A stretch of DNA of 64,000 bases from Pseudo-nitzschia pungens (lineage: Eukaryota; Bacillariophyta; Bacillariophyceae; Bacillariales; Bacillariaceae). Where the stretch lies: assembly GCA_037355855.1 (NCBI GenBank), contig CM074767.1, positions 868,001 to 932,000 of the forward strand, given 5' to 3'. Of the stretch, positions 16,155 through 63,524 are shown piece by piece. A program made the position numbers and the translations under genes. The notes beneath the pieces are model-generated. The model was not told the origin of the DNA. It saw nothing but the letters and a program-made list of their open reading frames with translations, and did no database searches. The first letter of the stretch is position 1; the number at the start of each line of letters is the position of its first letter.

Positions 16155-18506
16155 CTAGGTTGTGTACATTCGTACCTTCTTTAGAAGCTTCAAGGGGTCT
16201 TCTTGGTCTTTTTTGAATCTCAAAAGATCTCGCATATACGGCTTAATGCTCCTGTCCCTCATATTGCCCGTACCGCCGTCATTGCGAACGTGAACCATCG
16301 GACTATACCTGTAATGCTGCTTTGGATGGCTGTTCAAATACCTGCTACGTCTTTTGATTTCACCCACTGTTGGAAATTCTATGTAAGGCTCTTGGTTCAT
16401 GGTGACAATCTCACACTCCAAGTTTGGATTTGTACCATTCAGTGCTAGCTCTTGCTCTTCTCTCATCATCATCAACAGATCTTGATCTTTTGCACGTTGT
16501 TGGGAGTCTTTCCGATCGAATCCTTTTCTCCATCGCTCTAAACAAGGTTGAGACAAGGACCGATCAAGTATTATTTGCCCTCCTTGTATTTTCCACTTCT
16601 TTGCATTCCCTTTGAACATCCACATTTTTCCACGCCCTATGTTGGTTGCGTTGTTAAATTGTGAGTTGACTCCGAGTCGTCCGATTCCATAGGTCTTTTC
16701 TAGGCCATGGAAAGCTTTCAACACATTGTCACCGAAGACGATATCTACGTCAAGGTAGTAGACAAGCTCAACTTTGGCTAGTCGAGAATCTCTTTCCATG
16801 TATTCCAAAGCGTACGTCTTGAACCGCTTGTAGATCATGTTATCAATCTTATAGTGATTTTTTGTGTGTTCTTCTTTTGGTTCCATGATAATCACATTAT
16901 CTGTCCAATTTGATATTTTGCTGTATCGGTCAGGCGGAGCATCAGTCAAAACAACGATCCAACCCGTATATTTTCCATTATTTCGAGCAGAGTAGACGAA
17001 ACGTTCCACGGTGCTCATTTTCGCAGCAGTTTCTCCCATGCTGATAACGAACAACGCTCTTTCGATGTCATCTTGGTAGGAGATATCAGCATCAACCTCG
17101 TTTTCCACTGAATCTCTTGCCATTTTTCCGCGTAGAGAGGCATCGAGATATGATTTTTTTGTTATTCCAAGTTTGTCTTCTTGACCGCTTCCAAACCTGA
17201 ATACGTATCGAAGGTATGCTTCAAAATCTGCTGGAGATGTTTTAATCAAATCGATCCCAGTACTGGTGATGTGATTCAAAATGGGAGTCGGTTCGTCGTG
17301 GTCGATTTCGCCAGCAGCTATTTTTTGCATATACTTTTTGGTGGGGAAAAACATGTATTTTTCTTCTTCCGACATTAACACAATTTCGCATTTCAATAAG
17401 GAGTAATCCCTAGCTTCATGGGCTTCATTTTGATCCCGAAGCATTTGCTTCAAATGCAGCTGATCGATTGTGGAAGTTTTTGGGTCCATTAAGGATCGGA
17501 ACCGTTCCAAACAAGGCTGTGATAATTTCCGGTCCAAAATCATCAACCCTCCTTGAATCTTCGATTCTCCACTTTTGAACATCCACATTTTCGCCTCAAC
17601 AGAATCCGTTGCACTGTCCTGCGTTGTCATAAGCGAATGTTGACCGATTTGGTACTGTTCTTCCAGATCCTTGAAGAGAGGCCGGACTGAGTTCCCGAAG
17701 ACGATATCCACATCGAGATAATAAACCAAACTCACGTTGTCCAGTCTCGAATCTTTCGATAAATACTGCAAGGAATATGTTTTGAACTGTTTGAAGGCCA
17801 TCTTAGGGCCTTTATCATAGTTTCGAATATAGTGTTCTTCATCGGGACGCAAGACAATGAATTTGTCGTTATCGATACCTCCCCAGTTGCCGGATAAATT
17901 CTTGTACCGCTCATCCGGTGCATCCGTCAGTAATACGATCCATCCCTCGAACTCGCCAGCTTCTCGGGCAGACCAAACAAAACGTTCAACGTAATTCGAA
18001 ACGATAGCACTGTCTCCCAAACAAATAACAAAAAGGGCTCTTTCGATGTCGTCGTTGACTTCCTGTTCGCCATCTTGACTGTCACTTGCTGGGAAATCAC
18101 TCTCCGACAAAACAGCCGTTTGAACGATTTCCCCAATTAATTTGCTTTCTCCTTCAACAACCATGTCACTTTCTGTGCCTGTTGTGCTTACTCCTTGCAC
18201 CATCTTTTCGTCGTCGATGTCTTTTTGTAGGTTCGTGTTTTCTCCGGATTTCTGAGCTGAGATTTTGTCCACAGGCATCGTGGCCGCGCTATTGTCAAAT
18301 ACGCCATGTACGTGTAGTAGAGGTTGCGAATAATTTAGTGAAAACATCATCATTGTCTTCAACTGTAGCAAAATGCCTAGTAACAATCCAAGGACGCATA
18401 TCCTTCGTACAATGGTTGATGTTTGCGGCCTTCTATCGACAGCCTTATCGGAACTCATTGTGCTTCTCGCTCTTCTGCTGCTGCGGTTGGTTTGGGTTTT
18501 TGCCAT
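16155..18506 (-). CDS. Type II membrane protein with two tandem GT-A-like glycosyltransferase domains
   Basis: Single exon, about 783 aa, from the first ATG (18506). A short basic N-terminus and one hydrophobic segment (residues about 36-55, ICVLGLLLGILLQ) give the type II topology of Golgi glycosyltransferases. The lumenal part holds two clearly homologous domains, about 152-440 and 479-770. Each runs DDIERALFVI, ERFV(W/Y)SAR, GWIV(L/V)LTDAP, FKTY, YYLDVDIVFG, a KMWMFK...KIQGG block, LSQPCLER, then CEIV. The DVD of each copy (265-267 and 586-588) sits where GT-A enzymes use Asp-x-Asp to bind a metal and nucleotide sugar. Both copies keep it, so both could be catalytic. Donor and acceptor are unknown. 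Confidence 0.65.
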   Translation of the reverse strand: MAKTQTNRSSRRARSTMSSDKAVDRRPQTSTIVRRICVLGLLLGILLQLKTMMMFSLNYSQPLLHVHGVFDNSAATMPVDKISAQKSGENTNLQKDIDDEKMVQGVSTTGTESDMVVEGESKLIGEIVQTAVLSESDFPASDSQDGEQEVNDDIERALFVICLGDSAIVSNYVERFVWSAREAGEFEGWIVLLTDAPDERYKNLSGNWGGIDNDKFIVLRPDEEHYIRNYDKGPKMAFKQFKTYSLQYLSKDSRLDNVSLVYYLDVDIVFGNSVRPLFKDLEEQYQIGQHSLMTTQDSATDSVEAKMWMFKSGESKIQGGLMILDRKLSQPCLERFRSLMDPKTSTIDQLHLKQMLRDQNEAHEARDYSLLKCEIVLMSEEEKYMFFPTKKYMQKIAAGEIDHDEPTPILNHITSTGIDLIKTSPADFEAYLRYVFRFGSGQEDKLGITKKSYLDASLRGKMARDSVENEVDADISYQDDIERALFVISMGETAAKMSTVERFVYSARNNGKYTGWIVVLTDAPPDRYSKISNWTDNVIIMEPKEEHTKNHYKIDNMIYKRFKTYALEYMERDSRLAKVELVYYLDVDIVFGDNVLKAFHGLEKTYGIGRLGVNSQFNNATNIGRGKMWMFKGNAKKWKIQGGQIILDRSLSQPCLERWRKGFDRKDSQQRAKDQDLLMMMREEQELALNGTNPNLECEIVTMNQEPYIEFPTVGEIKRRSRYLNSHPKQHYRYSPMVHVRNDGGTGNMRDRSIKPYMRDLLRFKKDQEDPLKLLKKVRMYTT

Positions 18507-19992
18507 CGCCAATGTATTATCGCTTCATTCGATGATGATTCTTCTTTCACCGAACCAGTTGGTTACTTTTCTGAACGAATGTTACCTTGGTTGGAACCGG
18601 TGAACTACGCACATGTCAATCTAAATAATGTGGACCACGAATGGCTAATTACCGTTTGCCAAGCGGTAACCTTGTGAAAAATAGAATTGTGACGCGACAC
18701 TTGTCGGTCTACTCTCAAACCGTTATGGCGTGATCAACATTTTTTAAAAAATATACAAAAACGTAGAAGTCTAAATGAAAGGAATCGCGACCAAAATCTT
18801 ACGTATGTGCCGCGCTCTGCTGGCTTTTCGGATTTTTTGAGACTGAAATTCTCGTTCATCTGTTTTTTGATTGATTGAGATGATTCGATTCATTCATTCA
18901 TTCATTCATTCATTTCCCTTGGCGTCAAATTATTTTCTTTCGGACGAAAAAGACGAACTTATTGAGATGCATCGGTATGAAGATTGCCGCAGCATTTGTC
19001 CGAAGTCTGATGGGTGCTCCTGGGAAGTCCAATCCAACAGGGCACGATAGACAATATAGTTAGTTCGTTTTTTCGATACGATGACATGCCCAGCCATCTT
19101 TAACGCATTCCGAAACTCGGAACAACAATCCACGAGCAGCCATATCCGTTCATCAGTAATGATGCTTTCTTTGAGTGGGGAAAGAACCTTGGATCATTGT
19201 AGATGGTAGGGGACTGCAATCCAAAGAAAAAAATATTTCACTTGGTCGTCAATCGTGGGTGCATAGCCATTGTATCCTTGTTTGTGCCTCTAGGAATAAT
19301 AATAATTTGTAACGACGACTACGTGCACAAGTACACTACACGTAGCAGCAACACAAATGGATGAGAATTTAGTTTGAATCTCTGAACCGAGCATGTTTTT
19401 AACAACGCCCAACGTTACCCAAAACATCAATAAAAACAGATCCATAATGTCTCAACAGGCGAAAGCTCCCGTGTTCCACTGAAGAAACTCGAAATTGAAT
19501 TCTTAAGTCAAATTGGAATATCCCTGAGACCCAGCATCGTGTTGAATTTCAGACGGATAGCACACTCCTACTTTTTGTTCCAAATGCTATGTATCCCTTC
19601 AAAATGTGCAAAGCTGCCAGGCAGTTGGGTTCTCTCTTTATCTCTTTGTATTCGATTCAGTAGCCTTGAACGGCTTGTCCTCGTCTCGAACAATATCTCT
19701 CATCGAACCATTCGGTTCCATGCAAAGCCACAATGGTTACTACCTCAAAATAAAACTCGTTTAGAATGGATGAATCCAGTAATGCCAGCACTACAATATG
19801 TGGATACCAACAATCGACATCGATGAAATAAAATACCACCTAAAGTTCGCAATAAATTACTTCGTAGTTGGTAGTTAGTTCCCTGCAGTCGGGAATTTAT
19901 ACCTTCAAAACAAACCTGCGGATGACCGAGAGTCGGAGGAATGGAAATGAAGTACAGTGAAATCAAACAAATTATTATTAATTTAAAACAGA
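18507..19992. other. Intergenic
   Basis: About 1.5 kb of divergent or spacer DNA with an (ATTC)n tract and no supported gene. A 67-codon minus-strand frame at 18930-19133 has protein-like composition but nothing recognisable. Confidence 0.5.
18890..18917. repeat. (ATTC)n microsatellite
   Basis: About six perfect ATTC units in the intergenic region. Confidence 0.9.
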
Positions 19993-37790: not shown

Positions 37791-38767
37791 ATGGCCAAGC
37801 AAACTAGAAGACAAGTCGCTGCAGCCGCCACCGGAGACGGCGCTCCTGGAAATGTCCCTGGAGGCGGCGCTCTTCCACCTGGAGCCGTCGCTGGAGCCGG
37901 TGCTCCGCCGCCTGGAGCCGGCGCCACTGGAGCTGTCCCTGGAGCCAGCACTCCCCCGACTGGAGTTGCTGGCGCCGCCGTCGCTGGAGCGTCCCTTGTT
38001 GGAGCACCTGCTGCGTTTGGAGTCTCCTGGATTCAGCAAGAATCAAACCTCGACATCCAACCTCGATCTGAGATGATCCTGATTGCTGTTGCTGAGGAAC
38101 CGAGAACAATGCGCAACGAGAATGCAGCCCGGATGGCTGCTGACCCAATCCCCAAATGGGCGATGTCCTCCGAGAAATATGCTAAGAAAGCCATCGACGC
38201 GGTGGAAAAAGAGCTTGGCACTGAGCAATATGGTTACAAGTATCTTCCGAACAAGGTGTCAACCCCGTTGACATCAAACTATCGACCTGAAGTTGATGTA
38301 ACCGCCGAACTGGATCCAAGCAAACAGAATTACTACCAAGGATTGATTGGCGTCTTGAGGTGGTTGTGTGAACTTGGGCGACTGGATCTGGTCATGCCTG
38401 TATCTCTTATGTCTAGATACCTAGCGCAAGCGCGGACAGGGCATTTGAATCAAGTATTGCACATGTTCGCTTATCTCAAGGCGCATGCCCGATCCAAATT
38501 GGTGTTTGATGAGACCCGGCCTGGTGAGACTAGATTCCCTGATTGCGACTGGAGTGTATTCTACCCAGACGCCAAGGAGGTGTTGCCGCCAGATGCTCCT
38601 GAAGCGTTTGAGAAGGCTGTAAATATGAGTTGTTTTGTTGACGCCGATCATGCTGGATGCAAGGCAACAAGAAGATTCCTGAACAGGGCCCCTATCATGT
38701 GGTTCAGCAAACGCCAGACCACTGTCGAGACCTCAACCTTTGGATTTGAGATTGAGCAGGAGCAGGG

Positions 38768-38803
<36 letters not shown>

Positions 38804-38819
38804 ACTGTATGTCTTATAG
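37791..38819 (+). pseudogene. Gag-like N-terminus fused to RT end and RNase H start
   Basis: Open frame of 342 codons starting MAKQTRRQ. Residues 1-85 are Gly/Ala/Pro repeats like the N-termini of diatom copia Gag. From about residue 117 (WAMSSEKYAKKAIDAVEKEL) it is the thumb/connection of copia RT (YYQGLIGVLRWLCELGR, YLAQARTGHL), then the start of RNase H with the first catalytic Asp (CFVDADHAGC) and the WFSKRQTTVETST motif. It ends in a CAG-encoded Gln run and a stop. Everything between Gag N-terminus and RT end is missing here. Confidence 0.8.
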
Positions 38820-39960: not shown

Positions 39961-40260
39961 CTCCAGGCGCCCCACAAAGCACGAGATGGAAACCTGTGAC
40001 CACATAATTGCTACCAGGAATTCCAGCAAGCAGAATCAGAAATTGACCAATCACATTCCTATTCCCCCGACTTGACCAAGTTTGTTCCTGCCGTACAGTA
40101 ACAGCAGCAACAACAGACCAAGGTTAATACCCCGACATGCAACGTGCCTACAGCAGGAATCGGACCTATACCGATTGAGACCCCTGCCCCGACACGCAAT
40201 ATGCCTACAGCAGGAATCGGACATCCAATATGACCCTGATTGAAGACCAAGTCGTCAGTC

Positions 40261-41409
40261 ATGATTGAAGACCAAGTCGTCAGTCACGTCGATGTTCACC
40301 CTTTTTCGCCTGAGCTCGAACCTATCAAGAATATTCCTATCGGAACCTGTGTTACCGCCTACACAGCGCCCGACGGGAAAGTTTGGATCGAACACACGGT
40401 CCAATTTAGTCCCCATTTGTACGACAAGCCTCTTCGGAGCGACGAGCTGATCCTACCACCGCATGATTCCTATGAGAAGTACAAGCTGTGGAGTCTCCAG
40501 CAACTTTGTAACCGCCGTGATCTGACCCCATGTGCGATTGCATCTGACTCCCGTCTGAATGCGCGGCTACCTTCTCTCTTTTCGGGCGATTCCTTGAAGA
40601 CTTGCGGGGACGATGTAGACGTGGATTCAGTACCAAGTCTTACAATCAACGCCCTGCATACTCCTTTGTACGAGCGCGTCTACACTGATGGACGCGAGCG
40701 ATTTGAATTGGATTCCCGCTGTAGGGAGCCTGATTATCCCGTCTGCCTGTCATCAGTTTACAAGCATGTTCGATGGGACGACGATGCAGTCGAACCAGTC
40801 GATCCTGAGCTCAACACGATCTCCAGACGAGCCCTGTTGGGCCCGGCGATTGACACCGAACGATACTGCAAGATTGATTCCGACCGTCTGTCTAAGATTT
40901 GGGATGTATCTCCAAGAAAGGCTGCGGATACTCTTCGAGTCAGGACGCAGAAAGGATTTCGGAATCCACTACATCCCCTCGTTCGCCAACTGCCAACGCA
41001 GAGCTTCAGAAACAAGCGAATTGCGGCTGGCAAATGGTATACCGACACCTGGATGGCAAAGGTCCCGAGTATCATGCGACAAGATTCAGCCGCCCAAGTG
41101 TTCAGTAATGGTAAGGGCTACGATGAGTTCATACCTATACAGGGCAAGAAGCAAGCGTATGAAGGACCGAAGATTTTCATCCACGATGTCGGCATTCCCG
41201 AGCATTTGATATCTGATGGCGCTCGAGAGCAAGGAGCCCCTGGTACTTACAAGACTCCATGGAATAAGGTCGAATCGCGCGGAGCTCAGCATCGGCCATA
41301 TCAGCAGAAGCATCCGCAAGAAGACGGCCCGGAAGCGATCCCCCAAGCGCCTGTGGGCTTTCTGTGGGGAGCTTGTGGCTGCCATCTGACAGCGCACAGC
41401 TTCCAGTGA
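40261..41409 (+). pseudogene. Second protease end, pre-integrase and integrase core
   Basis: The 383-codon frame starts inside a repeated protease C-terminal part (QVVSHVDVHPFSPELEPIKN), which duplicates the segment at about 39680. A pre-integrase region follows (KAADTLRVRTQKGFRNPLHP), then integrase core (AQVFSNGKGYDEFIP, IHDVGIPEHLISDGAREQ). It leaves frame near 41290. Two copies of GACCAAGTCGTCAGTCA lie in tandem at 40240-40290. Confidence 0.75.
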
Positions 41410-61387: not shown

Positions 61388-63524
61388 CTAGGCCTGCTCT
61401 GCGTTATTGTTTTTGCGCAGAAGATCCAATTCGGCTTGGACTTCTTTCCGCTTGTTGGTGGCGCTCACAGCTACACCCACAGCAACCACGAAGAGAGCTC
61501 CCAAACCGACCCCAACCCCGATGGCCAGAGAAGAGGACGAACCTTGGTCGCAGTACAAGAGGGAGGCTTTCTCGGAATCAAAATCCCAGCGGGGTGTGAG
61601 TACAACCTCACAGTTTGGAGCATCGAGCGGGAACACATTGTCCACAACCTTCTGGAGGCCTGCCAATTCGTTTTCGACGATCGACGCCTTGTCGATGGCG
61701 TGAATGACGGTCTTACGTACGTTGATGTCGTCCAGTGGAGGCTTTCCGGAATTGAGAAGCAAGATGACGTTCTGGATGTCCTTGGAATGGAAGACTTGGA
61801 TCTTACCTTGGTATTCATCGTCGTCCTGAATGGCAGCAATGTCTTTGTCGGGAAGGACACCGGCTCCCCAAACGACATCCAGGCTTTCGTCGAGGAGGGC
61901 TGCTTTTGCGTCCTCGGAGCTGTCGTATCGGACAATTTTCAGTGTTTCAACGGCCGGGACGATGCCCCAGTAATCGCTGTTTGCGGTAAAGACAACCTCG
62001 GCGTCGACCTCTTCGTCACCGATGGTTTCGGTCTTACGGGAGGTGAATGCATATGGTCCCGTGCCAGAGATTTGCGTGATTCCGGCACAGGAAACGTCTT
62101 TTGGTTCCGATCCCTTGTGACAGGAGTTGTGTGTGATTGGGTCGGTGGTGTTGCCGTTCACAAATGCGGCGGGAGACAACATACGAAGAGGACGAATGTA
62201 GGAGAGCTCCTGAAGGAATGGGGTGTACTTTGTATGTGTGGTAACAATGAATGTGTAATCACCATAGCACTGCCACTTATTGATGTAAAGGGGAACACCG
62301 TACCAGCCGTGCCAATCGGGTGTTGCCAACTCTCCGGCAAAAACGTGATCAAAGTTAAGCTTGGCAGCCGCACAATTCCACTCGGTTCCGTCGTGAAACT
62401 TGACACCTTCTCGAAGCGTGAAGACGTATTGCTCACCGGGTTCGTACTCGTTGTCTGTGATGGTCCAGGACGTGGCGAGAGCGGGCAGGACCTGCCCACC
62501 TTCCCCATAGGCCACCAGTCCTTCGTACACCCAGTTGTTGGCGAAAAATTCGTTGGGGCGATACTTTTGAAGAAATTAGCGTTCGAACACGCGAGCGGAA
62601 ACGGGGAGTCGTCAAATGTAAGAACACGTTCGAGGCCAGAACAAGAACGAAGAAACATCAAAGCATGGTCAGTCTGTGCAGAGTAAGGTGTCTTACCGTG
62701 TGTGGGTCAAGACGACCAACCGATTGGAATAGCCCCGTTTGCGCTCCCGGGGCAATGGTTACGGTAGAAGATCCGGTGATTGGCACCAATTTGTGGACAG
62801 GGTAGTCAAACTGCTGGTGTCCGGCCTGGAATCCAGTAAGACGGGAATTCATGAGAGTTGGGATGCGTTTTCCCCAGAGAGGAAGCATTACGGCCTGGGA
62901 ATGGTAGTAATTGTGGATTTTTTCCCATTTGGCGGCTCGAGCTTTACGATCCTCCTCTTGCGTAACGTCTTGGATCATCTCGAAGAGTTCTTTTCTGGAT
63001 GCCGGTTCCGCAAAATTAGTAAAGGCTTGCATATGTCCTTCTCCACCACTTCCATTGATCCATCCGAGTGCGTACGAGTGCGGGTCGTAGGGAGCTCCCC
63101 ACGTCTCGGTGAAACTCAAATGGAAGTCCCCATCCTTCTGGGCCTCGTTCCACTTTTCCTTGCTCAACAATTTCGTCTCCACCTTGATGCCAAACTTTGC
63201 GAGGTGCTTGGCAATGTCATCTTCCACGGCCAGGCCGGTCGCATCGTTTTCTACAACGGTGAAGACCAACGGCTTCACGTCTTCGTGTTTACAGGTAGTT
63301 TCCTCTTCTAGCTTGCGACGAGTACTGCTACTCGAAATCTGTTTACCGACGAAAAGATGTTGATATAGAGTTAGCTATAAGACTAGGTATTCAAAATAGA
63401 TTCAAAAGTGAACATACAAATGCAACAAGAAATCTGCAAAAGAACTCACAGAAGAGAGCTGCGAACTGGATACCAGCTCAGCAAAGCCGAGGGCAATCAC
63501 CAATGAGTTGATAGAAAAATACAT
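61388..63524 (-). CDS. Circularly permuted NikA/DppA-like solute-binding protein, membrane anchored
   Basis: Three exons: 63524-63450, 63338-62697 and 62563-61388, with GTGAGT and GTAAGA donors, both introns phase 0, giving 630 aa. Residues 1-25 are a signal peptide (MYFSINSLVIALGFAELVSS). Residues 46-225 match the C-terminal half of family 5 solute-binding proteins (AVEDDIAKHLAKFGIKVET, TWGAPYDPH, YYHSQAVMLPLWG). Residues 230-580 match the N-terminal half (RLDPHTYRPNEFFANNWVYE, TLREGVKFHDG, GTGPYAF, NSDYWG, LLLNSGKPPLDDINVRKTV). Trp105, Tyr109, His127, Trp326 and Arg363 align with nickel-chelate site residues of E. coli NikA as I recall them. Residues 585-605 are a transmembrane helix followed by a basic coiled tail. 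A surface or endomembrane receptor for a metal chelate or peptide is inferred. Confidence 0.75.

Follow-up and report, generated by a model that had tools for sequence, protein, structure and literature searches.

Positions 61388 to 63524 of the window, by which we mean the whole stretch of 64,000 nucleotides analysed here (C10:868001-932000 in the genome of the diatom Pseudo-nitzschia pungens, which comprises 66.9 Mb in 28 contigs), hold a gene whose product is almost certainly a true circular permutation of a NikA-type family-5 solute-binding protein. The part of the chain that is C-terminal in NikA (the C-half) is read first and the part that is N-terminal in NikA (the N-half) second. The best explanation, which we consider likely, is that of a eukaryotic type I membrane protein in which a NikA-type family-5 binding protein has been permuted and serves in metal-chelate capture of the kind proposed for the diatom protein ZCRP-B.

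The gene lies on the minus strand, its start 476 bases from the window end, and consists of three exons that join into one frame of 630 amino acids and a stop codon. Its introns, of 111 nt and 133 nt, are both bounded by GT..AG, and P0001, a homologue of 93% identity, crosses both splice junctions free of gaps. The three-exon model of the initial annotation is confirmed in its coordinates and frame, and the signal peptide and membrane anchor it described are represented by a hydrophobic, signal-peptide-like N-terminal segment and by a C-terminal hydrophobic helix (residues 587-605, mean Kyte-Doolittle value 2.5). The features of the gene and its product are as follows.

61388..63524, minus strand: whole spliced gene, encoding signal peptide, C-half, N-half, transmembrane helix and short tail (based on the exons and frame, and on the 93%-identical homologue over 99%)
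63450..63524, minus strand: exon 1, residues 1-25, the hydrophobic signal-peptide-like segment
62697..63338, minus strand: exon 2, residues 26-239, the entire C-half and the start of the N-half
61388..62563, minus strand: exon 3, residues 240-630 and the stop codon
62769..63290, minus strand: C-half, residues 42-215, the C-terminal part in NikA; contains TWGAPYDPH (W105, Y109)
61541..62768, minus strand: N-half, residues 216-580, split by intron 2, the N-terminal part in NikA; contains W326 and R363
63291..63293, minus strand: Cys41, conserved, directly ahead of the C-half; proposed disulfide partner of Cys577
61550..61552, minus strand: Cys577, conserved, directly behind the EKA-x-LL helix; proposed disulfide partner of Cys41
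61466..61522, minus strand: predicted transmembrane helix, residues 587-605, IGVGVGLGALFVVAVGVAV (based on hydrophobicity here and on a helix in the homologue)

The swap of the two halves, which the initial annotation had proposed, is most directly seen against the NikA structure 4oer. Residues 231-580 of the window protein correspond to chain positions 11-321 (domain independent E-value 2.2e-36) and residues 43-211 to positions 332-497 (8e-10); both matches are significant and their order is reversed, so the halves are swapped. Profiles built from 21 native-order proteins give the same arrangement, with the C part matching residues 52-208 (4.5e-20) and the N part residues 230-575 (4.6e-69). 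The NikA profile TIGR02294 is matched in two stretches (6.6e-81, 272.3 bits, below its equivalog cut-off of 393 bits), as is the SBP_bac_5 profile PF00496 (147.9 bits versus a curated cut-off of 32.4), whose positions 287-364 are matched ahead of positions 2-270 in the gene instead of in the native N-then-C order. The chain is opened between the EKA-x-LL helix and the strand that follows it, and the old termini are bridged by a short linker before TVTIAPG. The claim of a clean cut behind the EKA-x-LL helix, as in a true permutation, is thus borne out, and the order is conserved in the homologues listed below.

Two protein searches, with a query in swapped and a query in native order, gave 121 different proteins among the best 120 of 1567 and the best 120 of 1985 matches. 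The C-half stands ahead of the N-half in all 121 of these listed homologues, some of them truncated. When the native-order profiles were applied to 123 algal sequences (the 121 and two genes of this genome), 121 were C-first; the truncated P0060 and P0092 had no C match with these profiles. Most of the listed homologues are nameless; those with names come from diatoms (Thalassiosira profunda, T. exigua, Skeletonema menzelii, Nitzschia inconspicua, two Bacillariaceae metagenome-assembled genomes (MAGs) and, as an MMETSP transcript protein, Coscinodiscus wailesii) and from dinoflagellates (Symbiodinium natans and Symbiodinium CCMP2592). In the tree described below, the window protein nests among the Thalassiosira, Nitzschia, Coscinodiscus and Skeletonema sequences. 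As an observation apart, the 981-aa homologue P0101 carries a Peripla_BP_2 domain (PF01497) ahead of its permuted family-5 domain, and so combines two different binding proteins in one chain.

An SBP_bac_5 search of the genome returned six matches in three genes: the window gene, a paralogue on contig C12 and a gene on contig C4. The C12 paralogue (C12:942500-950500, gene at ~5259-3307, minus strand) is the only other gene of this genome that the window protein itself matches. It is in swapped order; its two exons are 37 and 45% identical to P0001, and its product has seven cysteines and ends in a C-terminal helix. A search for its signal-peptide exon yielded two weak candidates, neither of which was accepted. 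The C4 gene (L008:3500-5184) encodes a native-order family-5 protein, nearest to the Opp5A/SaNikA type, with a signal-like start and a hydrophobic C-terminal tail. Given that this native-order protein also ends in a hydrophobic stretch, permutation does not seem to be needed for anchoring in this cell. The reading frame of the C4 gene is broken near L008:4480, which may be a sequence error, an unusual feature or the mark of a damaged gene.

Two rival explanations do without a permutation. An artefact, be it a tandem gene lacking some of its exons, wrongly modelled splicing or two broken genes misassembled into one, has in its favour that the gene begins so near the window end that little upstream sequence lies within it. 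The genome profile search, however, found no further SBP_bac_5 stretch upstream of or near the gene, the C12 paralogue has the same order, P0001 is continuous through both junctions, and the listed homologues that share the order come from several sources; we regard the chance of an artefact as negligible. The initial annotation had itself named an upstream exon with a second N-half, or two separate mRNAs, as the alternative to its reading, and this finds no backing in the intact homologues or in the upstream sequence. The tandem or missing-exon model is ruled out by the genome searches and by the order in the homologues. Exon shuffling, by which the halves would have been joined from two different binding-protein genes, is very improbable. 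Intron 2 sits 24 residues past the join of the halves, after LDPHT, as such a history might suggest; yet it is off the join itself, and in the C12 paralogue the intron lies 8 residues further on. Both halves match NikA, and trees of the N-half and of the C-half each unite the algal proteins (100 in both by the Shimodaira-Hasegawa-like approximate likelihood ratio test).

An AlphaFold2 model of the 93%-identical homologue is confident (predicted local distance difference test score 90.7, predicted template modelling score 0.84) and contains a C-terminal helix at residues 575-615. The nearest folds of the full model are NikA, CntA and DppA; none of the fold matches listed was recognised as a cluster B sugar-binding chain, in a comparison that was not aimed at establishing its absence. 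The C-half modelled alone gave a weak model and was used for its residue range only. Of 104 sequences, 103 have both a cysteine ahead of the C-half and one behind the N-half (residues 41 and 577 here, 33 and 569 in P0001) and the remaining one has neither, and this paired presence and absence leads us to propose that a Cys41-Cys577 disulfide probably closes the break left by the permutation. The tail probably ties the protein to the membrane, and we consider its anchoring at the surface very probable.

A second permuted family was found in bacteria. In a sample of 299 genomes from the phylum of Domibacillus (G001), 209 had some match, and at least five places matched across the swapped junction. 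Four of the five junction loci (L028-L032) form open frames whose end falls at the same linker, while L032 has an internal stop; in single comparisons of the bacterial loci, the C-half of E. coli NikA was recognised only in L029 (2e-5). The protein of L028, P0123, aligns with GbpA (3m8u) in swapped order, its residues 237-523 with chain positions 44-342 (4e-39) and its residues 55-166 with positions 367-481 (4e-9), and shows the same order against DppA. A permease is the next open frame at L028 and L032, the two loci checked. The best 120 of 3089 relatives of P0123 (P0123-P0243, 121 with the query) come from Thermaerobacter (Bacillota), Symbiobacteriaceae, Armatimonadota, Methylomirabilis and Desulfobacteraceae, mostly as MAGs, and all 121 listed proteins have the C-half first, also by the native profiles. 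In the class of genome G158, a full-length copy is present in 12 of 17 genomes at 68-100% identity. A single scan of viral contigs for permuted relatives gave eight pattern-matching stretches, none of which encodes a relative.

A close bacterial donor of the algal gene did not emerge from the two sources searched: a scan of genome contigs with two peptide patterns returned 11 loci of 29-33% identity, all in native order (L021 partial), and the best-scoring match in the 299-genome sample had 37% identity over the N-half, with shorter ones of up to 47%. The relationship of the algal and bacterial families was addressed with a tree of 48 sequences rotated to native order, in which the permuted group was set beforehand by chain order. 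It holds 15 of the 121 algal proteins, the window protein, the C12 paralogue, 10 of the 121 bacterial permuted proteins and 21 native ones; not included are the partial L021, the C4 gene with its native order, and L022-L026, which repeat the genes of L033-L037. The algal clade (support 100/100), at whose base the C12 paralogue branches without resolution, is sister to native NikA (99/97), within a clade (100/99) that excludes the bacterial permuted family. That family (100/99) branches beyond the DppA/GsiB-like sequences, at a fork supported by only 88/62. Forcing all permuted sequences into one clade makes the whole-length tree 77 log units worse (approximately unbiased (AU) test, p 7.6e-5).

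Because the tree places the algal family next to native NikA and rejects a single permuted clade, the permutation probably arose twice, and two independent permutations at the same linker are the better reading of these sequences. The alternative, that algae inherited an already permuted family-5 protein from bacteria of the Thermaerobacter or Armatimonadota type and their relatives, seems to us improbable. Permuted bacterial proteins do exist, opened at the same linker and uniformly in C-then-N order among those listed, and the C-half taken alone speaks for a common origin to the extent that it does not reject one permuted clade (AU p 0.063, non-significant, with long-branch warnings). The N-half does reject it (AU p 0.0155), as does the whole length, and the best solved relatives differ, being NikA for the alga and HbpA/GbpA and DppA for the bacteria. 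Long branches and sparse sampling of native proteins call for caution with the tree as a whole.

The residues W100, R97, R137, W398 and Y402 of NikA, which we take to line its binding site, were compared in an alignment with rotated NikA (A1) that retains 102 of the 121 algal proteins, the other 19 being truncated, over-long or near-duplicate. All 102 retain W100, R137 and Y402, and 101 retain W398. The R97 position is occupied by W, Y or K in 90 and by R in six, and at the position of H416, which the title of structure 3qim names as essential for nickel uptake in E. coli, Glu is present in 93, of which 61 have a His two residues on. For the window protein, the initial annotation was right that ligand-site residues are kept as far as W100, R137, W398 and Y402 are concerned, and wrong for R97, which is not kept, and for H416, which is replaced by Glu. 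Since both of the latter are replaced, the nickel chelate it suggested is a doubtful ligand for the window copy, and the main algal branch may have shifted away from a nickel-type site. The C12 paralogue retains R97 and H416 and would be the better candidate for nickel.

A NikA-like protein of the diatom plasma membrane that responds to zinc and cobalt was published in 2022 as ZCRP-B (Kellogg et al., PMC9010474), so the initial annotation's reading of the window protein as a new kind of surface receptor is not supported in that form. According to that paper, ZCRP-B, known from Thalassiosira pseudonana, Phaeodactylum tricornutum and Pseudo-nitzschia delicatissima, has 30.5% identity to E. coli NikA, is more abundant at low zinc and cobalt and is located at the cell membrane; diatoms, dinoflagellates and prymnesiophytes contain homologues of it (PMC9010474). 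Surface seawater contains little zinc, which may limit diatoms, and the proposed role of ZCRP-B is capture at the surface followed by hand-over to a ZIP transporter or by endocytosis, as for ISIP2a (PMC9010474). Permutation is not mentioned in the main text of that paper. P0018 of Thalassiosira profunda has 29% identity to E. coli NikA over 367 columns, about the ~30% level of ZCRP-B, and homology, taxa and identity level suggest that the window family is probably of ZCRP-B type, a likeness drawn through the published description.

In the mechanism that we favour, a NikA-type chain would have been cut at the linker that follows the EKA-x-LL helix, and its old termini joined. The signal peptide would direct the protein to the surface, where its two lobes, with the gap closed by the Cys41-Cys577 disulfide, would still close around a metal-chelate complex bound by the aromatic residues W100, W398 and Y402 together with R137. 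It could thereby capture scarce zinc and cobalt, or their complexes with organic ligands, and, independently of an ATP-binding cassette (ABC) importer, deliver the metal to ZIP-type transporters or through endocytosis, while the anchor would keep it near transporters or endocytic sites. The permease domain PF00528 has no match in the genome, versus matches in 14 of 14 control genomes, in an exon-by-exon search that could miss an intron-split domain; cobW (COG0523-type) genes are present.

That the window protein binds a metal or metal chelate is, in our judgement, reasonably probable, and for this copy the ZCRP-B literature favours zinc or cobalt. It is less likely, though worth weighing, that it is an anchored receptor or sensor for opines, peptides or other organic ligands, and that induction by zinc or cobalt shortage belongs to other family members. 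In favour of this reading, the ligands of family-5 proteins are diverse, most members have lost NikA R97 and H416, and the second solved relative (9pl3) was deposited as a peptide-binding protein. A further point, which speaks against a simple uptake role, is that cobalt uptake was not increased by over-expressing ZCRP-B, a result that its authors attribute to the medium (PMC9010474). Set against these are the near invariance of W100, R137, W398 and Y402 and the leading profile and fold matches, which are to NikA and then CntA, both metal-chelate binders. The peptide ligand also considered by the initial annotation is the less favoured option, with NikA at the top of the sequence and fold matches, but retains some probability in view of 9pl3.

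A more tentative proposal extends the metal-capture reading. Algae may once, either before the sampled lineages split or with spread between diatoms and dinoflagellates, have permuted a NikA-type protein into an ABC-independent, disulfide-stapled receptor, in which a helix grown from the former inner linker could transmit lobe closure to the membrane and so set off hand-over or endocytosis, while bacteria independently made the same permutation. If this is true, the linker would be a site at which the family-5 fold has been opened more than once, and two probably independent permutations at one linker would constitute a clean evolutionary experiment. If the ZCRP-B class is permuted, linear alignments with NikA would miss half of the binding site, and assignments of site and topology would need to be redone. 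The pair of paralogues in this genome, in one of which H416 is lost and in the other kept, would offer a direct test of what determines the choice of metal.

Elsewhere in the window, the open frames at 37791-38819 and 40240-41409 (plus strand) resemble, by eye only, fragments of a copia-type retroelement polyprotein. A 785-aa open frame at 16155-18512 (minus strand) contains two tandem copies of one domain (DDIERALFVI... twice) and looks glycosyltransferase-like, again by eye only.

The window protein can be placed among several known systems, although no report of a permuted family-5 protein was found in the literature searched, a body that leaves aside subscription journals and most preprints. 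With E. coli and Brucella NikA, the solute-binding protein of NikABCDE, it shares both halves, the fold, W100, R137, W398 and Y402; it differs in its swapped halves, the cysteines at its new ends, its C-terminal membrane helix and the loss of R97 and H416, and, unlike the NikABCDE system, its genome yielded no cognate permease domain. CntA of Staphylococcus aureus is likewise a metal-chelate binder, and comes next after NikA in NCBIfam profiles and fold matches, but has the native order and belongs to an ABC importer. ZCRP-B resembles the window protein as a diatom NikA homologue of ~30% identity, described as mostly extracellular with one predicted membrane segment; the paper places that segment near the N-terminus (PMC9010474), whereas a C-terminal helix and a signal-like N-terminus were found here. 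The phytotransferrin ISIP2a works in a similar way, with extracellular metal capture, one membrane helix and endocytic uptake, and has no sequence similarity to ZCRP-B in the published account (PMC9010474). The bacterial P0123 family shares the order of the halves and the opened linker, whereas its chain stops at the linker without a C-terminal membrane helix, and it forms a separate clade closer to HbpA/DppA; some members have a lipobox-like start by eye. Finally, TpMglB-2 (Tp0684) of Treponema pallidum differs in being a bacterial lipoprotein of the sugar-binding cluster B, not of family 5, but as described in PMC4990184 it too is a natural circularly permuted, membrane-tethered binding protein, and its authors regard tethering as a possible reason for the permutation.
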